Origin: Natronolimnobius sp. AArcel1
GTDB taxonomy: Archaea; Halobacteriota; Halobacteria; Halobacteriales; Natrialbaceae
NCBI RefSeq assembly: GCF_011043775.1
Contig: NZ_JAAKXY010000002.1
Location: 248,001 to 312,000 of the forward strand
Length of the DNA stretch: 64,000 nt
Reading direction: 5' to 3'
Within the stretch, counting starts at the first letter, position 1; each line of letters begins with the position of its first letter. Below the pieces are notes generated by a model that was not told where the DNA came from, did not search any database, and was given only the letters and a program-made list of their open reading frames with translations. The translations under genes were made by a program, and so were the position numbers. Of this stretch, positions 4,714 through 59,515 are shown piece after piece.

Positions 4714-6672
4714 CTACTCGCTGTTGTACTCGCCGTCGAAAAACGCACGACAGAGTTTCGCCTCTGCCGTTCGCAGATGTTCGTGGAACGTCGGCCGCGA
4801 AACGTTCATCGACTGAGCCAGGTCCTCGCCCGTCACCGGACGCGGCCACTCGAAGTACCCGCCAAGGTAGGCCCGCTGTAAAACGGTGAGTTGGCGCTCG
4901 GTCAACTCATCCTCGAGTCGCGCGGCGAACTCCTGGCGTGTCTCGCCGCTTCGGTCGCGCTGTTGGAACGAGCGAACGTCGGTTCCGGGATGGCGCTCCT
5001 CGAGTGCGTCGATGATCGTGCGGACGTTCGCCGAGCGTGGAATCTCGAGTGAAAGCCTCGCGCGGCCGTCCTCGCAGTCAATCGACGTAACGCGCACACC
5101 GCGTTCGGAGAGCCAAGAGACGGGGTCGTCCCCACCGGAGAGTTCGACCACGCATTCATCGTCATCTTCGCGGTCGACCACGACACGGCAGTCGATATCC
5201 GACAGGGAATCGGCTGCCTCGGTTAGTGTGTCCGCACTGGCTCCCGAAACGGTAAATAGGGTCGCTGTGTCCCCGTCACTGAGGTCACCTGATCCAGGTT
5301 GGTGGACCGATCGGCGATACTCGAGTCGACAGTCAGCGCTTGCAGAGAGTGCAATGGGTGCAACAGCAGAATCCGTTACCTCGAGGTCGATGGCGACGAC
5401 AGCGTCGGTCGTGAGCACGCGGCTGGTCTCGCGAGCGTTGATCCCGCTTGCGATGGCTCGAGCGAGTGCGGAAAAAATCACGGCCTCACGGTCGCCTATA
5501 TCCTGCCCAGAGACGGCACGAACGCTGAGGACGCCGTACTCGATCTCGTTGTACATCAGCGGATACGCTGCGTGCGTCGGCTCGGCTGTCGACGCATCAG
5601 CATCGGTGGCGACCGTTTTGCGGGCGATCTCGCCCGTTTCGAGCGCCTCGGCTGCCGGATGGGCCGCATCGACTGCGATCGATTCTGGTGTTGAACCGGC
5701 ACCAGCTCGGACGTCGATCGTTCCGGTGGCGGGATTTCGTTCGCCGATCCAGACGTCATCGTAGGCTGCCTCCGCCGCGATCCGATCACAGACCGCTCGC
5801 TCGAGCGTCGACCGATCGGCGGCACCCGCGACGGCCGCGGTGACATCCTGAACGAGACCTTCGACGCGCTCAAGGAGGTACTCGAGTTCCGCAGTGCGAT
5901 CTTCGAGGGCGAGTTCGGCTTCCTTGCGTGCGGAGATATCGTTCTGGAAGCCGACGTAGTGAGTGACCGTTCCGGCAGCATCCCGGACCGGCGCGATGGT
6001 GACTTCGTTCCAGAACTCAGTGCCGTCCTTGCGGTAGTTTTTCAGTTCGACAGTTACCGGCCGTTCCTCGGCGATAGCAACAGCCATTTCGGCGATTGCG
6101 TCGGGATCGGAGTCCTCGCCCTGCAAGAGCCGGCAGTTCCGGCCGATGACGTCGTCATAGCTGTAGCCCGTAATCTCCTGATACGCGTCGTTGACGTACA
6201 CAAGCGGGTTGTCCTCCCGGTCGGGATCCGAAATTGTGATCCCAACTGGCGCTTCCTCGAGTGCACGCTCTTTGACCGCTCGATCCTGTGTCAGGTCGGA
6301 ATGCTGGCCATCACGTGTGGCTGTCGCTGTGTCACTCGCGGAATCGGCCATCACTCGAGACGTAAAGACAACCGTTGCACCGCTTTCTGCGCGGTGAATC
6401 CGTCCATTGTACTGCGTTCCATCGAGTGCGATCTGACGCGACGTCCCAACTGTCGTCTCATTGATTTCCGCTGCGACGGCGTGTGAATCCTCGAGAACGT
6501 CGCCTAACGCGTGCTCTCCAGTCCCTTCGAGGTCGAACGCCTCGCGGGCGGCACCGTTTGCGTAGGTGACGGTCCCATCCGTGACAGTAATGACGGGGTC
6601 GACGAGTCGCTCGAGTGTGGCTGTGGCGGGCGAGTCCTCGACTGTGTCACCCCCAGTATCGGCGTTTGTCAT
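4714..6672 (-). CDS. LOV/PAS-GAF-HTH_10 one-component transcriptional regulator (Bat-like)
   Basis: This encodes 652 residues counted from the ATG at 6672. An in-frame ATG at 6699 would add nine residues. An N-terminal PAS-like domain (about 20-110) is followed by a second PAS (about 135-245) with all LOV hallmarks: GRNCRLLQGED with Cys180, NYRKDGTEFWN and YVGFQNDI. A coiled linker, a GAF domain (about 275-430), a BAT-type linker and a C-terminal HTH_10 (LTERQLTVLQRAYLGGYFEW, then DLAQSMNVSRPTFHEHLRTA) follow. This is the architecture of Bat, the bacterio-opsin activator. It probably senses blue light or redox through flavin and regulates promoters; its targets are unknown. It is monocistronic. 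Confidence 0.85.
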   Translation of the reverse strand: MTNADTGGDTVEDSPATATLERLVDPVITVTDGTVTYANGAAREAFDLEGTGEHALGDVLEDSHAVAAEINETTVGTSRQIALDGTQYNGRIHRAESGATVVFTSRVMADSASDTATATRDGQHSDLTQDRAVKERALEEAPVGITISDPDREDNPLVYVNDAYQEITGYSYDDVIGRNCRLLQGEDSDPDAIAEMAVAIAEERPVTVELKNYRKDGTEFWNEVTIAPVRDAAGTVTHYVGFQNDISARKEAELALEDRTAELEYLLERVEGLVQDVTAAVAGAADRSTLERAVCDRIAAEAAYDDVWIGERNPATGTIDVRAGAGSTPESIAVDAAHPAAEALETGEIARKTVATDADASTAEPTHAAYPLMYNEIEYGVLSVRAVSGQDIGDREAVIFSALARAIASGINARETSRVLTTDAVVAIDLEVTDSAVAPIALSASADCRLEYRRSVHQPGSGDLSDGDTATLFTVSGASADTLTEAADSLSDIDCRVVVDREDDDECVVELSGGDDPVSWLSERGVRVTSIDCEDGRARLSLEIPRSANVRTIIDALEERHPGTDVRSFQQRDRSGETRQEFAARLEDELTERQLTVLQRAYLGGYFEWPRPVTGEDLAQSMNVSRPTFHEHLRTAEAKLCRAFFDGEYNSE

Positions 6673-49537: not shown

Positions 49538-52099
49538 TTAGTTCGCCGCCGTTGCGTCCGTCTCCGGCTCCGGCTCGGTTGCGCTCCCACCGCCACCGCC
49601 GCCGAACAGGCGGCCACCCGCGGTGAACAAGTACAGGATGGCGAGTCCGAGCATGTACGTCAGCGCAATCGGAATCGCGACGAGCAACATCGTTAAGATG
49701 CCCTTCGGGCTGGCGATTGCGGCGACGGTGAAGATCCCGACGACGACCGGACGCCAGGCTTTCAGCATCGTCCGGTAGTGGACGATCTTCCCGACGTGGA
49801 ACAGCGCCATCGTGACGATGATATTGAACAGGAAGCCAACGCCGATGGTCGTGTAGATCACGAGCCACGAGAAGCTGTTGATCCGGTAGGTGACTTCCAT
49901 CTGGTTCCGGAGGGCGTCAGTGATGAGATACGAAATGACCGTCGGCGCGATCCAGTAGAAGCCAAGGAACAGCCCCATCCCGAAGCCGGCGAAGATGGTG
50001 CCGCCCCAGACGAGGAACACGCGCGGGTCACCGCGGACGAGGCCGCGCTCTTTGGCTGCGGGCCACGCCCAGTAGAGGATCATTGGCAACACGGAAATGA
50101 TCGCAAGGATCGTACTCACCTTCACCATGAAGATCAGCACTTCGACGGGGTGTAACGCGATGACTAAGCCGAGTTCACCGATTATATCGGTCATCTGCTC
50201 CGATGAATCTGCAGCGGCGATTTCTGCTTCACTCTGATCCGTGACCTCAGCGAGCACACTGGCCGGGATACGGTCGACGAACTGCGCCAGGACGATCCCG
50301 AACCCGCCCTGATACATTGCAAGGAAGGTGCCACCGAGGACAGCCATGAACATGCCGACGATGTAGATCGTCTTCGAGGTCAGGCTGTCCACGATAAAGG
50401 CCAGATCGTACGCGTAGCCCCCAATGTCGTCCTCCGTCGTCTCCTCCTCGGTGAACGGATCAAGCATGCCCGCTGCCGTACTCGAGAAGAGACTCCCCTC
50501 ATCATCGTCATCACCAACGCCATCGTCGCCTGCAGCCGCCCCTGCCTCTTCGCCGCCTGCATCCTCGAGGTCGGCGTCCTCGCGTTCGTCCTCGAGTGCG
50601 TCAAAGCGGTTGAGAATCGCTTCGGCTTTCGTCCGATTCTCGTCGTGCATCGCCTGCCGAGAGTGCTCGAGAGCCTCATCTTCGGTCATCGTGAGGAAGA
50701 CCGAATCCGAAAGCTCGCCAATATCGTCGGCATCGAGGACGTCGAAGTTGACGTCGGCGGGGTTGTCCGCCGTTTTTTGCTGTTCGTGCAGCGTGTCGAA
50801 CCGGTCGATGATGGTCTGGGCTTTCTCCCGGTTGTCGTCGTACATCGCCTGCCGGGCATAGTCCATTGCCTGGTCTTCGGTCATCGCGAGGAAGACCGGC
50901 GCTGGAACCTCCTCGATATCGCCGACTGCGAGCGTGTTGAAGTCGACATCGTCCGGCGTTTCGGCTGCACGAATGTCGCCTTCGCGCGGATACACCGGCG
51001 ACTGCAGGATGTTGACCATGTAGCCGACGAGCAACACGACTCCGAGCCCGAGCGCGATGATGCCCGCGACGGCCGCATCACCGAGCAGGCCGTGTTCAGC
51101 CGGTAGTGTTTCGAGACCGAAACTCAACTCGAGCGAACTGCTCGGTCGGATGCCAGCCGGCAGCAATGGGTAGAGGAGTTCTTCCGTGCGCTCGAGGCCG
51201 TTCTGATTGAGATAGATCGTTACCGCAGTGGTCGTCAGTCCGATGATGCCAGCGAATTGGAGGACGCGCTGTTTCATCAGGGCGGTGCCGCCGTCGAGTT
51301 CGGCTGCGCCGCGTCGGCGGATGTTAGCGACGATTTTCGCGAGACCGAGACTGAACGCATAGAGAGCGACCAGTGGCAGCATCCACATGATCAGCGTGAA
51401 CGGATCCGGTGGGGAGAAAAGAGCCCCGAAAACGGTGATGCCGACAATTGCGTGGCGCCACTTATCGCGGAACGTCTCATAGGAAATGATCTCAGTGTAC
51501 GAAAGGACGCTCATAAACAGCGGCAGTTGTGCTGCCAGTCCGAACGAAAGCGTTAGCAGCGCAATGAACTCGGTAAACTCGGTAATACCCCAGCTTGGGT
51601 TCACGCCGGCATCGAACGCAACCGCACCGAGGAAGTCGAACGCGAATGGGAAGAAGACTGCGTACGCGTAGGCGACGCCGACCCAGAACAGCGTCATTGA
51701 GGTTATAACGAGCGCGGCCAGATACCCGCGTGAGACCGGAACAACAGAGTTGACGCCGCGCTTTCGAAGCGCATCGCGTGAATAGTACAACAACGCCGGA
51801 ATCGCGACGATGACACCGACAAGCATCCCGATTTTCGCCTGTAAGAGGATGACCTCGAACGGCGTGCGCGTAATGATTTGTGTCGCATCGGCGACGTACT
51901 GGTCCATTTCCGCTGTTGCCGTCGCCTCGAGAAAGTCCCAGATAAAGACCCGAAGGGCGTAAAACGAGCCGATAAAGCCGATGACAAAGACGATAAACAC
52001 CTTCTGGAGGTGTGTTTGCGCACTCGAGAGTATCGCACCGAGCGTCTCCCGCCCGGAGTGAACTGCGCGGACGGTATCCTCGTCGACGGCAGAACTCAT
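49538..52099 (-). CDS. tatCt: Tandem TatC protein TatCt
   Basis: The product has 853 residues from MSSAVDEDTVRAVHSGRETL. It contains two complete TatC domains: the first at about 15-265 (HLQKVFIVFVIGFIGSFYAL, AIPALLYYSRDALRKRG) and the second at about 580-825. An extra transmembrane pair and a cytoplasmic acidic linker join them. The linker has two similar about 60-residue units beginning FLAMTEDQAMDYARQAMYDD and FLTMTEDEALEHSRQAMHDE. TatCt is the haloarchaeal fused twin-arginine receptor. The gene is divergent from tatC. Confidence 0.92.
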   Translation of the reverse strand: MSSAVDEDTVRAVHSGRETLGAILSSAQTHLQKVFIVFVIGFIGSFYALRVFIWDFLEATATAEMDQYVADATQIITRTPFEVILLQAKIGMLVGVIVAIPALLYYSRDALRKRGVNSVVPVSRGYLAALVITSMTLFWVGVAYAYAVFFPFAFDFLGAVAFDAGVNPSWGITEFTEFIALLTLSFGLAAQLPLFMSVLSYTEIISYETFRDKWRHAIVGITVFGALFSPPDPFTLIMWMLPLVALYAFSLGLAKIVANIRRRGAAELDGGTALMKQRVLQFAGIIGLTTTAVTIYLNQNGLERTEELLYPLLPAGIRPSSSLELSFGLETLPAEHGLLGDAAVAGIIALGLGVVLLVGYMVNILQSPVYPREGDIRAAETPDDVDFNTLAVGDIEEVPAPVFLAMTEDQAMDYARQAMYDDNREKAQTIIDRFDTLHEQQKTADNPADVNFDVLDADDIGELSDSVFLTMTEDEALEHSRQAMHDENRTKAEAILNRFDALEDEREDADLEDAGGEEAGAAAGDDGVGDDDDEGSLFSSTAAGMLDPFTEEETTEDDIGGYAYDLAFIVDSLTSKTIYIVGMFMAVLGGTFLAMYQGGFGIVLAQFVDRIPASVLAEVTDQSEAEIAAADSSEQMTDIIGELGLVIALHPVEVLIFMVKVSTILAIISVLPMILYWAWPAAKERGLVRGDPRVFLVWGGTIFAGFGMGLFLGFYWIAPTVISYLITDALRNQMEVTYRINSFSWLVIYTTIGVGFLFNIIVTMALFHVGKIVHYRTMLKAWRPVVVGIFTVAAIASPKGILTMLLVAIPIALTYMLGLAILYLFTAGGRLFGGGGGGSATEPEPETDATAAN

Positions 52100-52296
52100 T
52101 TGGTGTCCATGGGTAACTGACATCCCGTTATCAACCTTTCGAGTCCCGTACCCTGGAAATGAGCCATATACGTTTTTGCGTCTGTATCGGTGTGGGTGAG
52201 CCGCCTCGAGGGCGTCGGGTAGGGAGTCATTGTGGGTCGCGTGAGATGGTCGTAAGAAAAAGGCCTATAACCAGTGGCCTATCTATATCCCGATAG

Positions 52297-53307
52297 ATGT
52301 CGGATGAGTTGGCGGCTTCGGGGGATCCCGACCCAGCGAGCGCACGCACCCAGCCACATGAACGGGCTGACGAGCGTGTACTCCCCGACGGCGGGCAACC
52401 CGAATCCGATGATGACGCGGACGAGGATTTCGATGCAGACGGAGGCGCGGACGGCGACGAAACTCCGCCGGTCGAAACCGACGGCGAAGGCGTCGTGAGT
52501 CCGGAGGCAGAAACCGGGGAGCCCCCCTATCCGGACTATCCGGACCCCGACGAAGACGACGACCTCGGCGGTCTCGAGACGCCGCCGGACGACCAGGAGA
52601 TGCCGCTGGCCGACCACATCGAGGAGATGGTGCTTCGGATGGCCTTCGTCCTGTTGTTCGCCTCCGCCGGCACGGCCGTCGGATTGTTGTTTGCCTCGGA
52701 TGCCATCGGCTACATCTGGGCAGATATCTTCCCGGCTGCAGCCGATGAAGCTCCCCCGCCACACATTTATCACCCACTCGAGCTGTGGCTGACCCGAATT
52801 AAGCTCTCGGCGCTGCTTGGCATCATGGTCGGCTTGCCGGCCTTCGTCTACCAGTGCTATAAGTTCATGAAACCGGGGCTGTACCCCCACGAGCGCAAGT
52901 ACTACCTCGCGGCAGTCCCGACGAGTGTCATCCTTGGCGCACTTGGGATGTTGTTCTCGTACGTGCTCGTGTTGCCGCTGCTGTTCGAGTACTTCACGTT
53001 CTACGCGGAAGGAAGCGCAGACATCGCCTACGCGCTCGGTGAGACGTTCGATCTGGTCATTACGCTGACTGGGTTCCTCGCAATCGTCTTCCAGATTCCG
53101 CTGTTCATGATGCTCGCGATCATGATGGGTGTAACGACCCGGCGCTGGCTCGCAGACAAGCGTCTGTACTTCTGGGCTGGCTTCTTCGGGCTCTCCTTTA
53201 TGTTCACCATGGACCCGACCATGATGGCACCCATCTTCGTCGCGATCACCATGATCTTGCTGTTCGAAGGCACCCTGTTGATCCTGAAATGGGTCGGTAA
53301 GGAATAA
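52297..53307 (+). CDS. tatC: Sec-independent protein translocase TatC (TatCo)
   Basis: The product has 336 residues. The first about 100 residues are acidic and disordered; then comes the TatC domain with PLADHIEEMVLRMAFVLLFA, six helices and MKPGLYPHERKYYLAAVPTS. It recognises twin-arginine signals, which suits the many haloarchaeal Tat-exported proteins including those at 30.6 and 35.1 kb. A TATA-like GGCCTATAACCAG lies about 28 bp before the ATG within an AGGCC/GGCCT palindrome. tatA is not in the window. Confidence 0.95.
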   Translation: MSDELAASGDPDPASARTQPHERADERVLPDGGQPESDDDADEDFDADGGADGDETPPVETDGEGVVSPEAETGEPPYPDYPDPDEDDDLGGLETPPDDQEMPLADHIEEMVLRMAFVLLFASAGTAVGLLFASDAIGYIWADIFPAAADEAPPPHIYHPLELWLTRIKLSALLGIMVGLPAFVYQCYKFMKPGLYPHERKYYLAAVPTSVILGALGMLFSYVLVLPLLFEYFTFYAEGSADIAYALGETFDLVITLTGFLAIVFQIPLFMMLAIMMGVTTRRWLADKRLYFWAGFFGLSFMFTMDPTMMAPIFVAITMILLFEGTLLILKWVGKE

Positions 53308-53445
53308 TCGCGCGCGAGCGTCTCGTTCTTCTGGTGCCAACCCACCGAATGCCCAAACACGATAAGAGCCACCCACTCGAGAGAATTCGGTGTGGACACT
53401 CGGTCACTTAGTGAATCCGTTAGCCATGTGTCCGTCCTTATATTG

Positions 53446-53515
53446 TCCTAATGCGTACCACCACTGGACGAACATCATCTAATAGATCGAAATGTAGTGG
53501 AATATAAACGAATAC
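53446..53515 (+). promoter_or_regulatory. nasA upstream boxes shared with the transporter and nitrite reductase genes
   Basis: Box 1 TCCTAATGCGTA (53446-53457), box 2 AATAGATCGAAATGT (53481-53495) and box 3 ATAAACGAATAC (53504-53515). Box 3 recurs almost unchanged upstream of the transporter gene; boxes 1 and 2 recur upstream of both other genes. The 326-bp gap (53308-53634) holds nothing else except a small palindrome, ATACGA/TCGTAT, at 53545-53560. The function as regulator or basal promoter sites is inferred. Confidence 0.55.
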
Positions 53516-53634
53516 GGTTTAGTAGCCACACACTTTCCAACCCTATACGACCAATCGTATGATATTGTACGCTCTCGAGTCCGGGTCCGAGTATTCTCTG
53601 GTGGCCCGTTCGAAGCCGGTCGGAGGTGTCGTTC

Positions 53635-55794
53635 GTGACTGATCTCGTCCCGACGACGTGTATGCGGTGTGCGGTCGGCTGTGGGCACGTTCAACGGCCC
53701 GTCGAGCAGGGCTACGGTCTTGACGTCGTTCGCGGCGATGCGACACATCCGGTAAATAACGGTCTCGCCTGCCAGCGTGGCATTCGCGAGACTGCCGACC
53801 CAGACGGCGAGTGGCTCACCCGCCCGCTCGTTCGCCGTGACGGCGACCTCGTCCCGACGACGCTCGAGAACGCCTTAGAGCGCGCCGCGGAAGGGCTCGA
53901 CGGCGCACTCGAGGGTGGTCCAGAACGCGTTGCGGTGTTGGGAAGCGGCCAGCAGACCAACGAGGCAGCCTACGCGCTGGGGAAACTAGCTCGAGGCGGG
54001 TTCGGGACACCGTACTACGACGCCAACACGACGCTGTGTATGGCCTCGGCGGTTACCGCCTACTACGATGCGTTCGGGAGCGACGCGCCGCCACCGACGT
54101 ACGACGATATTCCCGAGGCGAACACGCACCTTGTCTGGGGCGCGAACCCGGCCGCCGCCCACCCGGTCATGTTCCGCTGGATCAATCAGTCCGCAGACGA
54201 GGACGACTCGGAACTGATCGTCGTTGATCCCATCGCGAGCGAGACGACCGAGGTCGCAGATCACCACGTGCCACTCGAGCCCGGCGGCGATCTCGCGCTC
54301 GCTCGAGCGGTTCTCGCACACGTACTCGAGACCGACCGCGTCGATGAGACGTTCGTTGATGAGGAAACTACGGGCTTTGCGGACCTGCAAGCGTCGTTGC
54401 CAGCCGCCGAAACTGCCGCGGAGCGTGCTGGCGTCTCGATGGCCGATGTCGAACACATCGCGGCTGCACTCGAGGACCCCACACTGCTGTACTGGGGAAT
54501 GGGAATCAACCAGAGCGTCAACGGCACCGCAGCCGCGGGCGCGCTGATCGATCTGTGTCTGGCGACGGGGAATCTCGGCCCCGGCTCCGGCCCGTTCTCG
54601 CTGACTGGGCAGGCGAACTCGATGGGCACGCGCGTCTGTTCCTCGAAAGGAACCTGGCCCGGACACCGACCGTTTGACGACCCGGAGCACCGCCAGGACG
54701 TCGCAGCCGCCTGGGACGTACCCGAATCCCGACTGCCCGAAACGCCGGGTCCCGGCCCCGTGGGCATCGTCGACGCAATCGGTGACGATGTCGAGGCCGT
54801 CTACGCGGTCGCGACGAACCCCGTTGCGGGGATGCCCGATACGACACACGTGCGCGACCAACTCGAGGATGCGTTCCTCGTCGTCCAGGACTCGTTCCGA
54901 AGCGAGACAGTCGAACTCGCAGATGTGGTCCTGCCGGCAGCGACCTGGGGAGAGTCCGAGGGAACGACGACCAATATGGAACGAACCGTTGCCCGCGTTC
55001 GCGCCGCGACGGAGACGCCAGGTGGCATCAAGACGGACCTCGAGCTGATCGGCGCGCTTGCAACCCGAACCGTTCCGGGCCTGTTCGACGACGGGCTCGA
55101 GCCTGAAGCAGTCTTCAACGAACTTGCCGCCCTCACTGCGGGAACGCCGGCGGATTTGTCGGGCATTAGCTACCCGCGACTCGAGGCTGAGTCGGCGGTT
55201 CGCTGGCCAGCACCCGCCCCGGATGTGTCGGCTGGCTACCGATACTACGAGGGGCCGGATTACACGGAGAGCGACTCGGCGACAGAGACCGCGGCCGGAG
55301 GCGACTCGTGGTCGTTCCCAACGCCATCCGGTTGCGCGCGATTCTCGAGTGGGACCGCCCACCCGCTCCCGGAGTCGACCGACGACTCATATCCGTTGAC
55401 GCTGACGACCGGGCGACAACCGGACGCGTACAACACTGGCGTTCGGACGCGCGAATCAGCCCCACCAGTTGCTCGTGTCAGTCCCGCGACGGCAGCTGCT
55501 CTGGTCGACGAACTCGAGCATATCGAGACGACCGGTCTCGAGGCCGGGGACGACGCATCCACGACGTACGGTCGCGTCGTCTCTCGTCGCGCGTCGGTAC
55601 CTGTTCGTGTCGACACTGACGAGGCGATTCCCGATGGCATCGTCTGGCTGCCGATTCACCACCCTGGAATCAACAAACTGACAGTTTCTGATGTCGATCC
55701 TCGCTCGAAAGAACCAAACTACAAGCAGTGTGCCGTTCGCCTCGAGCCACCGCAAGATGCTGACGCGATAGCCATCGCAGAAGCGAGAGCATAG
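53635..55794 (+). CDS. nasA: Assimilatory nitrate reductase (molybdopterin, ferredoxin-type)
   Basis: The product has 719 residues. An N-terminal [4Fe-4S] site (C9, C12, C16 in CMRCAVGCG, and C46 in LACQRG) precedes the molybdo-bis-MGD domains: WGANPAAAHPVMF, GMGINQSVNGTAAAGALIDL, TGQANSMGTR and the C-terminal dinucleotide-binding segment TTGRQPDAYNT. It reduces nitrate to nitrite. No Tat signal, so it is cytoplasmic, as expected for assimilation. The GTG at 53635 is chosen because GGAGGTG (53622-53628) is a Shine-Dalgarno six bases before it. The nitrate transporter and nitrite reductase genes follow. Confidence 0.92.
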   Translation: MTDLVPTTCMRCAVGCGHVQRPVEQGYGLDVVRGDATHPVNNGLACQRGIRETADPDGEWLTRPLVRRDGDLVPTTLENALERAAEGLDGALEGGPERVAVLGSGQQTNEAAYALGKLARGGFGTPYYDANTTLCMASAVTAYYDAFGSDAPPPTYDDIPEANTHLVWGANPAAAHPVMFRWINQSADEDDSELIVVDPIASETTEVADHHVPLEPGGDLALARAVLAHVLETDRVDETFVDEETTGFADLQASLPAAETAAERAGVSMADVEHIAAALEDPTLLYWGMGINQSVNGTAAAGALIDLCLATGNLGPGSGPFSLTGQANSMGTRVCSSKGTWPGHRPFDDPEHRQDVAAAWDVPESRLPETPGPGPVGIVDAIGDDVEAVYAVATNPVAGMPDTTHVRDQLEDAFLVVQDSFRSETVELADVVLPAATWGESEGTTTNMERTVARVRAATETPGGIKTDLELIGALATRTVPGLFDDGLEPEAVFNELAALTAGTPADLSGISYPRLEAESAVRWPAPAPDVSAGYRYYEGPDYTESDSATETAAGGDSWSFPTPSGCARFSSGTAHPLPESTDDSYPLTLTTGRQPDAYNTGVRTRESAPPVARVSPATAAALVDELEHIETTGLEAGDDASTTYGRVVSRRASVPVRVDTDEAIPDGIVWLPIHHPGINKLTVSDVDPRSKEPNYKQCAVRLEPPQDADAIAIAEARA

Positions 55795-55907
55795 TGCGGT
55801 TGTGCACACAACGTGTAGTGGCTCCGAGAGTCGATGACTGTCCCGAGTGCGGCCTCGCTGGTCCGTTGAAGATGCACAATTCCGGCCGCAGTCTCGCCGA
55901 ATAAACG

Positions 55908-55988
55908 TCCTAATATAGTCCTTATTCGATTGAAGACCACGCAGGTTGGATAGAAAATAGCGAAATATTCGAGTTCATAAACGAATAC
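55908..55988 (+). promoter_or_regulatory. Boxes upstream of the nitrate transporter gene
   Basis: Box 1 TCCTAATATAG (55908-55918), box 2 AATAGCGAAATATTC (55956-55970) and box 3 ATAAACGAATAC (55977-55988). Order and spacing of boxes 2 and 3 equal those upstream of nasA after allowing a two-base gap. The intergenic gap of 296 bp therefore has its own promoter, separate from nasA. Confidence 0.55.
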
Positions 55989-56090
55989 TGTTATATGTTG
56001 GACAAGCATGACGATGATTCGTGACGTTCGTTATATTCGAGAAGGGATATGCCGCTTCTCGTGTGAATCGTTTAGCTGAGGTGGTCGGCC

Positions 56091-57422
56091 GTGGCGTCTG
56101 AATCGAGCGGTCCAACGATTCGTGGAACGCCAAAGCAGGCGCTTTCGATCCTGACGTTCGGCTACTTCGTCGGATTCGCCGGTGTGGTCGTCTACGGGCC
56201 CGTCGCAAGCGAGTTCGAGAACGTCCTGGGCCTGTCGGGCGTCTTGCTCGGCCTGCTCGTCGCTGCACCACAGTTGACCGGCTCGCTACTGCGAATTCCC
56301 TTCAGCGCGTGGGCCGACAGTGTCGGCGCCAAAAAGCCATTTAGCATCCTCCTTGGGCTGTCAGTAGTCGGCATGGGCGGCTTGCTGGGTATTCTGATGA
56401 CGACGTACCCCGACGGGCTGACGATGGTCCATTACCCGCTCATCTTCTTCTTCGGCGCGCTCTCAGGCTGTGGGATCGCGGCGTTCTCCGTCGGCATTAC
56501 CGACATCTCCTACTGGTACGAGTCACGTCGCCGCGGGACGATGCTCGCGCTCTTTGCCGGCCTCGGGACGCTCTCACCCGGCCTGTTTACCATCGTCTCG
56601 CCGTTTGCCCTCGAGTCCATCCAGCTGACGGGGACGTACGCGCTGTGGTTTGGTTTCCTCCTCGTTGGGACCGCGATTTTCGTCACGTTCGCCGTCGACT
56701 CACCCTATTTCCAGTTGCGCAAACAGGGCCTCGATGAAGCCGAAGCGAAAGCTCGCGCCGAAGACGTTGGACAAGAACTGTTCCCGAACGGTGATGCACT
56801 CGAGTCGATCAAACAGGCGGCGGCGCTCCCGCGGTCGTGGCTGTTGACGCTGATGTTTTTCGTCTCCTTCGGCGGCTATCTCGCACTGACGACCTGGCTA
56901 CCGTCGTACTGGCACAACTTCCATGGGCTTGATCTCCGGACTGCCGGTGTCGTCACCGCGCTTGCGTTTACGCTCTCATCGCCGCTGTTTCGCGCAAGCG
57001 GAGGTGCGATCAGCGACCGATTCGGCGGCGAGATCACAACAATTGGGAGTTTCGTGCTGGTCGTCTGTTCGACGGTCGTGTTGATATTCGTCTCACATCT
57101 CCACCTCGCAATCGCTGCGACGGTCGTCCTCGGCGCCGGCATGGGAATCGCCAGTGCAGCAATCTATCAGTTGCTGCCTCGATACGTCCCCGAAGCAGTC
57201 GGCGGTGCGTCTGGCCTCGTGGGCGGACTCGGCGGCTTTGGCGGCTTCGTCGTCCCACCGATCCTCGGCCTGTTCGTCGACGTTCAGGGTGTCTCGGGCT
57301 ACGCAACTGGTTTCGTCGTCTACCTCCTACTCGGTCTCCTCGCGCTTATCATCGCGGGCTCGCTGTATCGTTCAAGCGAGACGGCGGCCCCGTCACAGAC
57401 GCCGGCACCTGCTGACGATTGA
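56091..57422 (+). CDS. nasB: Nitrate/nitrite MFS transporter (NarK/NasB type)
   Basis: The product has 443 residues starting at GTG 56091, with the Shine-Dalgarno-like GAGGTGGT (56078-56085). About twelve transmembrane helices. FGALSGCGIAAFSVG and GLVGGLGGFGGFVVPPILG fit the nitrate-porter glycine-rich signatures. A charged central loop carries KQGLDEAEAKARAEDVG. With nasA and the nitrite reductase gene on both sides, nitrate (or nitrite) uptake is the likely role. The C-terminus is disordered. Confidence 0.88.
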   Translation: MASESSGPTIRGTPKQALSILTFGYFVGFAGVVVYGPVASEFENVLGLSGVLLGLLVAAPQLTGSLLRIPFSAWADSVGAKKPFSILLGLSVVGMGGLLGILMTTYPDGLTMVHYPLIFFFGALSGCGIAAFSVGITDISYWYESRRRGTMLALFAGLGTLSPGLFTIVSPFALESIQLTGTYALWFGFLLVGTAIFVTFAVDSPYFQLRKQGLDEAEAKARAEDVGQELFPNGDALESIKQAAALPRSWLLTLMFFVSFGGYLALTTWLPSYWHNFHGLDLRTAGVVTALAFTLSSPLFRASGGAISDRFGGEITTIGSFVLVVCSTVVLIFVSHLHLAIAATVVLGAGMGIASAAIYQLLPRYVPEAVGGASGLVGGLGGFGGFVVPPILGLFVDVQGVSGYATGFVVYLLLGLLALIIAGSLYRSSETAAPSQTPAPADD

Positions 57423-57561
57423 ATCGAGTCACTCGAGTAGGTGCGTTTTCTCGTCCGCGCTTGTTGTCTCCATCGCGCTATCGTCCCGACCGGCCTGGTA
57501 CCTCATCGAGTCAACTCAGTGAAAGACGTCCATTCTCGAGTCAATGTTCTCCACGGACATA

Positions 57562-57692
57562 TCCTAATATGCGTTATATTTGGTTGTACACTTCGGCTCT
57601 GTTCCTAAAACGCTCCCAAATTTAACCATATGTCAACAGTACAAGTTATATGGTTTAGAACCATTGCATGAAAACGTGAATAGCGAAATGTT
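57562..57692 (+). promoter_or_regulatory. Boxes upstream of the nitrite reductase gene
   Basis: Box 1 TCCTAATATGCGTTA (57562-57576) matches the nasA and transporter boxes. Box 2 AATAGCGAAATGTT (57679-57692) matches the transporter version. Box 3 is not obvious. The 329-bp gap between the transporter and nitrite reductase genes holds no gene; it also contains AT-rich TATA-like stretches near 57575 and 57645. Confidence 0.5.
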
Positions 57693-57751
57693 TGGAGTGG
57701 AATTCCGCGTCTTTGCGACGGGTCGTCGGGGCGACCGTGAGGTGAGCGTCG

Positions 57752-59515
57752 ATGGTGCATAAGAAAGAAGAACAAAAAGCAGACTGTTACGGGGACGACG
57801 TCCGCGAGCACATCCTCGAGTTCGCCGAAAACGGGGGCTACGAGGCGATTCCGGAGGACGAACGCGACACCTGGTTCACCCGATTCAAGTTCTGGGGGCT
57901 GTTCCACCAGCGCAGCGGTCAGGAGTCGTACTTCATGATGCGCCTGACGAACGCCAGTGGCATCTTAGAGCCGGGGCAACTGCGTGCAATCGCCGAAGTC
58001 GCTCGCGACTACGCGACGGGGCCCGTCGAAAACCCCGAATTCGGCAACGGCTGGGTCGACTTTACAACTCGCCAATCTGTCCAACTGCACTGGCTCAAAC
58101 TCGAGGACGTGCCGGCAATCTGGGACCACCTCGAGAGTACCGGCGTTTCCTCGCGCTCTGCGGGCGGAGACACGATGCGTAACATTTCGGGGACTGCACT
58201 CCACGGCAAAGTCGAGGAGTACGTCGAGTCCGGACCACTGCTCGAGAAGTTCCAGAACGAACTTCGCGGCGACGACGCGCTCGCGAACATGCCCCGGAAG
58301 TTCAACATCAGTGTGACCGGGGGCAAGTCGGGTTGTGCGCAGGATTCGATCAACGACATCGGGTTCGAACCCGCGCGCAAGGAAATTGACGGCGAAGAAG
58401 TGAAAGGCTTCAACGTCCGCATCGGTGGCGGCCTCGGTGGTCGCCAGCCCCGTGCTGCGACGCCACTCGATGTCTTCGTAACGCCCGAGCAGGCCTACGA
58501 GGTCGGCCGTGGTTTCGTTGAACTCTATCACGACCACGGCGGGCGGACGAACCGCTCGAAGAATCGCGCACGCTTCTTCGCCGAAGACTGGGGCATGGAG
58601 AAGATCCGCAAGACGCTGCAGGCGGGGTACGTCGACTTCGAACTGCACACCGCAGGCGAAGACTTCCGCGAGGAGTACACCTACAACGCGGGCAAGTCGA
58701 CCGACGCGGGCAAACACGACCACGTCGGTGTCTACGACCAGAAACAGGAGGGTCTGAAGTACGTCGGCCTGAACGTCCCCGTCGGGCGCATTCCTGCCGA
58801 GGACGCTATCGAACTCGCCGATCTGGCTGATGAGTACGGCTCCGGCGAGATTCGGCTGACGCGTCGCCAGAACCCCGTCGTCGTCGATGTTCACGAGGAC
58901 GGACTCGAGGACCTGCTGGCTGAGCCACTGCTCGAGGAGTACCAGCCCGAGCCGAGTCCGTTTGAACGCGGTGCGATGGCCTGTACCGGGACGGAGTTTT
59001 GCTCGATTGCACTCACGGAGACGAAAGGGCGCATGGCCCGCATGCTGCGCTGGCTCAACAAAAACGTCGATCTGCCAGACGATGTTGAGAAGATCAAGAT
59101 GCACTACTCGGGCTGTACGGCCGATTGCGGGCAGGCGATGACTGCGGACATCGGTCTGCAGGGCATGCGCGCCCGCAAGGACGACCAGATGGTCGAAGCC
59201 TTCGACATCGGCGTCGGCGGCGGCATCGGCGAGGAGCCATCGTTCGTCGAGTGGGTCCAACAGCGCGTGCCCGCCGACGAGGCACCTGGCGCGATCAAGA
59301 ACCTGCTCGAGGCCTTTGCGGCCCACCGCACCGAAGGCCAGACGTTCCGCCAGTGGGTCGAGGCGACGGGCACCGAACAGTTGATCGAGTTCTGTGAACC
59401 CGAGGAGACGGACTTTGAAGCCCCGTATATGGGCGACGCCAAACAGTCCTGGTACCCGTTCGCAGAAACCGAGTCAGCACCTACTGCTGAGTCGGTTGCT
59501 CCATCGGACGACTGA
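57752..59515 (+). CDS. nasD: Ferredoxin-nitrite reductase (siroheme, [4Fe-4S])
   Basis: The product has 587 residues. The cluster/siroheme ligands are present: C411 and C417 in CTGTEFC and C455 and C459 in GCTADCG. The two ferredoxin-like half domains begin with TFTTRQ-like VDFTTRQSVQLHWLKLEDV and GGKSGCAQDSIND; the second half has GSGEIRLTRRQNPVVVDV. It reduces nitrite to ammonium in six electron steps. A sulfite-reductase role is possible in principle, but the context of nasA and transporter decides for nitrite. GAGGTGAG (about 57738-57745) serves as Shine-Dalgarno. Confidence 0.92.
   Translation: MVHKKEEQKADCYGDDVREHILEFAENGGYEAIPEDERDTWFTRFKFWGLFHQRSGQESYFMMRLTNASGILEPGQLRAIAEVARDYATGPVENPEFGNGWVDFTTRQSVQLHWLKLEDVPAIWDHLESTGVSSRSAGGDTMRNISGTALHGKVEEYVESGPLLEKFQNELRGDDALANMPRKFNISVTGGKSGCAQDSINDIGFEPARKEIDGEEVKGFNVRIGGGLGGRQPRAATPLDVFVTPEQAYEVGRGFVELYHDHGGRTNRSKNRARFFAEDWGMEKIRKTLQAGYVDFELHTAGEDFREEYTYNAGKSTDAGKHDHVGVYDQKQEGLKYVGLNVPVGRIPAEDAIELADLADEYGSGEIRLTRRQNPVVVDVHEDGLEDLLAEPLLEEYQPEPSPFERGAMACTGTEFCSIALTETKGRMARMLRWLNKNVDLPDDVEKIKMHYSGCTADCGQAMTADIGLQGMRARKDDQMVEAFDIGVGGGIGEEPSFVEWVQQRVPADEAPGAIKNLLEAFAAHRTEGQTFRQWVEATGTEQLIEFCEPEETDFEAPYMGDAKQSWYPFAETESAPTAESVAPSDD

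Follow-up and report, generated by a model that had tools for sequence, protein, structure and literature searches.

The NrpR operator regulon of methanogens is an archaeal nitrogen-assimilation regulon that takes in glnK-amtB and glnA. Haloarchaea do not conserve NrpR (PMC6801745) and they are also without NtrBC/sigma54, while GlnK was found to be dispensable for ammonium repression of amtB (PMC3831643). The closest described system in this lineage is nasABC of Haloferax mediterranei with its Lrp/AsnC binder HFX_0246, which comprises the same genes as those considered here and is driven by nitrate and repressed by ammonium, with a short promoter sequence being essential and Lrp binding in vitro (PMC8143581). 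With the whole nasABC promoter as bait, the Lrp whose gene adjoins glnA was pulled down, and a five-base change from TAGAT to GGCCC abolished the nitrate-driven activity; no composite element, spacing rule, genome-wide regulon or link to amtB was described, and the regulator of the haloarchaeal nas genes was called unknown (PMC8143581). At the gene level, nitrogen-responsive expression is known for the Haloferax nas and amtB-glnK genes (PMC8143581, PMC3831643), and amt-glnK and nas are both up under nitrogen limitation (PMC3831643, PMC6801745, PMC8143581). Here, a 64 kb stretch of the genome of the Natrialbaceae member Natronolimnobius sp. AArcel1 (G000 C2:248001-312000, in the following called the window) was analyzed, which encodes the nitrate genes nasA, narK (a NarK-type transporter) and nirA. 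These three genes and amtB, which lies outside the window, share one two-part promoter that is conserved across most of Halobacteria.

An initial annotation of the window had noted that each nitrate gene has a separate upstream region of about 300 bp, as is seen for nasA, narK and nirA, and had placed three shared sequence boxes in these regions. To define the conserved unit, upstream regions from 80 loci that have a related nirA (23 in Natrialbaceae) were aligned. The unit spans about 100 bp and is a composite promoter with a distal and a proximal element. The distal element reads GTCCTWATA (CCTWATA in the alignment) and continues in AT-rich repeats that follow each other at about 11 bp, close to one helical turn. 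The proximal element TTTGTNAACGATTANNGTTATAT is composed of box 3 of the initial annotation and the TATA box, and both are also found inside the form TTTGTAAACGATTACNGTTATAT that it takes in the alignment. For nasA, the distal element GTCCTTATATTGTCCTAATGCGTACCACCAC (53434-53464, + strand as all following features of the window) contains two GTCCTWAT copies 11 bp apart (53434/53445) and is conserved at fixed spacing in 17 Natrialbaceae nasA promoters, and the proximal element with TATA box AATATAAACGAATACGGTTTAGT is located at 53501-53523. For narK, the distal element GTCCTAATATAGTCCTTATTCGATTGAAGAC (55907-55937), again with two GTCCTWAT copies 11 bp apart (55907/55918), is followed by the proximal element with TATA box TTCATAAACGAATACTGTTATAT at 55974-55996; box 3 lies inside the proximal element in both cases. 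The nirA promoter has the distal element ATCCTAATATGCGTTATATTTGGTTGTACAC (57561-57591), which like those of nasA and narK was assigned by the alignment and a two-block weight matrix, and a diverged proximal element with TATA box TATGTCAACAGTACAAGTTATAT (57629-57651).

The distance between the two elements is nearly invariant. It amounts to 67, 67 and 68 bp in the window and, with 58-73 bp allowed in the two-block matrix, to 66-69 bp in 113 of 120 class-wide promoters of nasA, narK, nirA and amtB. CCTWATA starts 65-67 bp ahead of the proximal element in 43 of the 44 Natrialbaceae promoters listed, the window included, and the spacer is less conserved than either element. Most amtB and nirA promoters have a start-like CGTGA about 30 nt past the TATA box, at 47 nt counted from where the proximal element starts. 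The distal elements of nasA and narK in the window are clearly periodic at 11 bp, but a strict 11-bp period does not hold for the class, in which the columns show raised similarity at lags of 9-12 and not just at 11.

The box strings of the initial annotation are all present where it had placed them, and box 3 turns out to form the core of the proximal element. Its sequence ATAAACGAATAC has exactly two occurrences in the window (53504 and 55977; 0.002 expected, both strands), and when the two intergenic regions concerned were shuffled 5000 times, they shared any 12-mer in 21 cases. What had been overlooked is the diverged nirA copy. Box 1 is likewise real, conserved and part of the distal element, but the nasA position given for it, 53446, falls in the second repeat, while GTCCTTATATT at 53434, 11 bp upstream of that repeat, is the one that lines up with the other promoters. 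Box 2 does not hold as a shared element. Its strings exist but are out of register and not conserved, forming spacer in nasA (53481-53495) and narK (55956-55969) and leader 3' of the TATA box in nirA (57679-57692); a 10-mer is common to the narK and nirA strings, and in 23 relatives box 2 scores no better than shuffled sequence. The conserved spacing is not the one between boxes 2 and 3 that had been pointed out, but that from distal to proximal element. Box 2 exemplifies a chance likeness of AT-rich intergenic DNA and generic promoters. That such likeness accounts for the composite promoter as a whole is hardly conceivable, as the two-block scores of narK, nirA and nasA (53.8, 41.6 and 34.8 bits) compare with maxima of 9.3 bits in shuffled and 14.0 bits in reversed sequence, and as genome-wide searches return the E-values given below and no further match at E<=10.

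These searches were performed with two profiles. Profile R1, which is sequence-only, was derived from 40 Natrialbaceae promoters outside the window; in the whole genome it found the promoters of narK (E=2e-12), nasA (E=1e-7) and nirA (E=4e-7), with the next site at E=1. On 61 genomes of the family the same weak match class recurred, and the gene behind it was amtB in nearly all cases inspected. Profile R2 was derived from 85 class-wide promoters (nirA, nasA, amtB and one narK), leaving out the window and the amtB of the same genome; at E<=10 it gave four matches in the 4.56 Mb genome, namely narK (1e-11), amtB (1e-9), nirA (6e-8) and nasA (6e-7), so that the only addition to the three promoters originally noted is amtB. 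In this genome, glnA and lrp have negative best scores for proximal and distal element and are rejected as members of the regulon. The restriction to four genes differs from the AT-rich motif AAAGACTAART of Haloferax volcanii, which is similarly a predicted nitrogen-related motif, with the Lrp HVO_A0307 proposed as its reader and amt1 and amt2 among its input genes, but which has another sequence, is a single 11-bp motif, matches 492 genes and is tied to L-alanine use (PMC6801745), whereas the promoter described here has two elements, fixed spacing and four matches in the genome.

Across the class, the composite promoter is found 5' of nasA, narK, nirA and amtB in Natrialbaceae and in most other families of Halobacteria. 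At E<=0.05, 102 of 116 Halobacteria genomes contain a match, 102 of 107 with amtB and none of 9 without amtB (Fisher p=3e-10); some of these genomes had contributed to R2, so this count depends partly on the profile, while the result in the own genome is independent of it. Other class-wide matches inspected, away from amtB and nasA, mostly precede nitrogen genes: besides nirA, four genomes have the promoter before a NarK of a second type, and one possibly before a MobA-like gene. Since the fourth target is amtB, and this also in genomes with no detected nasA, narK or nirA promoter, nitrogen status rather than nitrate alone is suggested as the signal. The own-genome amtB (L118:2717-4522 on G000:C2) encodes an AmtB-GlnK fusion of 601 aa (PF00909 and the PII/GlnK domain PF00543). 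It lies 150 kb from the nitrate genes, in a position neighbouring hemL. In one genus (L230, L231 and L232, from G136, G089 and G113) a promoter copy is located 5' of hemL, in the position occupied by amtB in the own genome, with no amtB there; it is followed by a possible small ORF (open reading frame) starting MRETN, and amtB is encoded elsewhere in these genomes.

As the narK and nirA promoters and leaders look related, the shared sequences might be regarded as the leftover of a local promoter duplication in the nas cluster, without common control. The narK leader of L015 (Natronorubrum texcoconense) also resembles a nirA leader. This explanation is very improbable: the same composite promoter stands at amtB, 150 kb away, by which a purely local duplication is ruled out, and both elements are kept across families while the spacer is not. 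The L015 narK leader (5001-5312), with an MFGEH... frame followed by MVRK..., gives the impression of a nirA leader that was copied along with its promoter.

Downstream of the promoter, the leaders show a second recurrent trait. With transcription starts predicted from the distance to the TATA box, narK has a predicted leaderless upstream ORF VTFVIFEKGYAASRVNRLAEVVGRGV (56021-56101; predicted start of transcription about 56021) and nirA another one, VNSEMFGVEFRVFATGRRGDREVSVDGA (57676-57762; predicted start about 57676), each of which overlaps the start of the main gene by 11 nt. For amtB, all 29 loci have an ORF reaching from within a few nt of the predicted 5' end to the amtB start codon, compared with 5.8 in shuffled leaders, and stop and start overlap as ATGA in 16 and as TGATG in 8 loci. 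The same type of upstream ORF is found in 34 of 52 nirA leaders (15.0 expected) and in 16 of 30 nasA leaders (4.8 expected); the nirA overlap is partly owed to the conserved first codons of nirA itself. Leader length varies by multiples of three in 23 of 24 amtB and 20 of 22 Natrialbaceae nirA cases, while the codon positions of the leader ORFs show no excess of third-position change and no sign of selection on the peptide, and for both reasons frame and stop seem to matter more than the leader peptide. In the amtB loci L138-L167, residues 15-17 of the leader ORF are often (D/N)-x-(R/C). The nasA leaders of several Natrialbaceae (L007, L011, L015, L019, L020 and L024) contain an inverted repeat, GTGTGATT-GTA-AATCACAC, which is absent from the window; it might fold into a hairpin in the RNA or serve as a further operator.

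In Haloferax volcanii, leaderless translation is the main mode and applies to 72% of protein-coding transcripts, and short ORFs were likewise described in leaders of ordinary genes (PMC4983044). They were sought only in leaders of 150-250 nt, and the main text does not mention amt or glnK, whereas the leaders considered here measure about 70-128 nt, with the ORF running from the predicted 5' end into the main start codon; being shorter, these leaders would have escaped the H. volcanii search. The transcripts are predicted to open with a leaderless ORF which terminates at the start codon of the main gene, and the chances are about even that this gene is translated by termination-reinitiation. 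The more far-reaching proposal, two-level control by one module in which the two-element promoter is combined with a leaderless ORF of about 25-34 codons at the extreme 5' end of each transcript, its stop codon overlapping the main start, is rather unlikely. If it were true, output would depend on translation of the leader, which would amount to a translational nitrogen or amino-acid check; we have seen no description of such a check in archaea.

With respect to transcription, conservation and specificity support the original suggestion of one nitrogen-responsive regulator acting on the three promoters. Judged from sequence, it is probable that nasA, narK, nirA and amtB form a nitrogen-scavenging regulon under one regulator with composite sites, in which the composite promoter would switch on the four genes when preferred nitrogen is scarce. 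The regulator would bind at two places: the AT-rich repeats of the distal element, which lie about 115-85 bp before the predicted start, and the proximal TNAACGNTWA, the latter touching the region of the TFB-recognition element and the TATA box, from where it could help TFB and TBP or, in nitrogen excess, hinder them. Because the spacing is fixed at 66-69 bp, a single looped or wrapped complex contacting both sites is suggested. We infer that the elements are binding sites for a single protein, that it responds to nitrogen and that it acts in one of these two directions, by activation or by repression. The proximal element directly abuts the TATA box, and Halobacterium Lrp proteins alter the expression of tfb genes (PMC2894021), so one might alternatively take it for an extended recognition element of one of the many haloarchaeal TFB paralogues, with the distal element bending the DNA and a specialised general transcription factor setting the regulon in place of a DNA-binding regulator. 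This is improbable, as a recognition element usually has 5-6 bp and the core AACGNTWA extends further upstream, CGAAA, published as the haloarchaeal element (PMC4983044), is confined to box 2 in the three regions, and the strict spacing to a second conserved element requires an additional factor.

As to its identity, the leading candidate for the regulator is an Lrp/AsnC protein of the glnA-linked subfamily that would sense an amino acid such as glutamine, for which we see just under an even chance. In one family, at least 19 genomes have an lrp gene immediately behind amtB-glnK (five loci inspected), and in G118 an Lrp/AsnC gene (L246:6229-6810, - strand) stands under its own copy of the promoter, divergent from nirA-nasA. 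The amtB-linked Lrps are paralogues of the glnA-linked Lrp, and the closest own-genome relatives of the G118 protein are the glnA-adjacent Lrp and its paralogue. The linked proteins carry an AsnC-type helix-turn-helix (HTH; PF13404/PF13412) and the ligand domain PF01037, the latter below its cut-off in G118. In a tree, amtB- and nirA-linked Lrps group with the glnA-linked one, with inner forks that are not separated and two long-branch rows inside. The proposed mechanism has a precedent in Sa-Lrp of Sulfolobus acidocaldarius, a glutamine-responsive archaeal Lrp of nitrogen genes that acts through a bipartite AT-rich site, deforms DNA strongly and works like the proposed regulator but differs in lineage, in its targets (gltB, gdhA and glnA) and in the sequence of its binding site (PMC3584215). 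The TAGAT mutated in H. mediterranei could end the proximal element, for which Haloferax relatives read AACGATTAGGTCTTTATGG, and the published mutant may be a proximal-element mutant if the arrangement is AACGAT-TAGAT-CTTTATGG; TAGAT was found at the proximal element in none of the Haloferax nasA promoters examined.

Several observations weigh against the picture drawn here. Halorubrum-type nirA leaders have poor two-block scores, 14 of the 116 genomes are without a match, 5 of these with amtB, and the window nasA leader contains no upstream ORF. The gene glnA has no composite site in the own genome although it is an Lrp target in Halobacterium (PMC2894021). For the Lrp assignment, no Lrp was found next to amtB or nas in the family of the window, the glnA-linked Lrp is present in 32 of 32 genomes tested irrespective of the promoter, so that its profile is uninformative, and its level did not respond to the nitrogen source (PMC8229911). 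The last three points favor a regulator outside the Lrp family, from another helix-turn-helix family, for example HTH_10/Bat-like or an unrecognised winged-helix protein, acting on the same regulon through the same sites, with the amtB-linked Lrps acting elsewhere. The window does encode ArsR-type and kinase/response-regulator proteins, but far from the nas genes. We consider such a regulator a credible option that falls somewhat below even odds. Against it speak the lrp genes that accompany amtB-glnK or, with the same promoter, nirA, as well as the Lrp pulled down on the nasABC promoter and the absence of NarO-type operators. NarO/DmsR (HTH_10) sites are CGAA-N4-TTCG inverted repeats, and NrpR-like sites read GGAA-N5-7-TTCC. 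Neither the three window regions nor 109 related promoters contain the former (narK has one CGAA-N3-TTCG at 55961, within the non-conserved spacer); the latter is absent from the three regions and occurs in 1 of 109 related promoters. By this absence from the window regions, NarO-type and NrpR-type operators are both ruled out.

The genes themselves were assigned as follows. The assimilatory nitrate reductase nasA (53626-55794) matches NF041323 (Nitr_red_NasA_Halo) with 1208 bits at a cut-off of 1000, the NarK-type nitrate/nitrite MFS transporter (56091-57422) matches TIGR00886 with E=5e-36, below its cut-off, and the ferredoxin-type assimilatory nitrite reductase nirA (57752-59515) matches NF007125 with E=3e-127, also below its cut-off. 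They follow a tatC gene on the same strand. Upstream of nasA (49538-53307) two divergent tatC-family genes encode proteins of 861 and 336 aa, a neighborhood of nasA common to most Natrialbaceae loci.

A prior description of the composite promoter was not found in the open-licence papers searched, and an earlier description elsewhere is possible. The initial annotation was right in that the shared boxes mark one nitrogen regulon, and the element is corrected to a rigid two-part promoter that includes amtB. A promoter with strict spacing, four targets in this genome, class-wide conservation and a named regulator family constitutes a concrete target for finding the nitrogen-scavenging switch of haloarchaea, and, judging by the predicted upstream ORFs, translation may be a further level at which the regulon is coupled.

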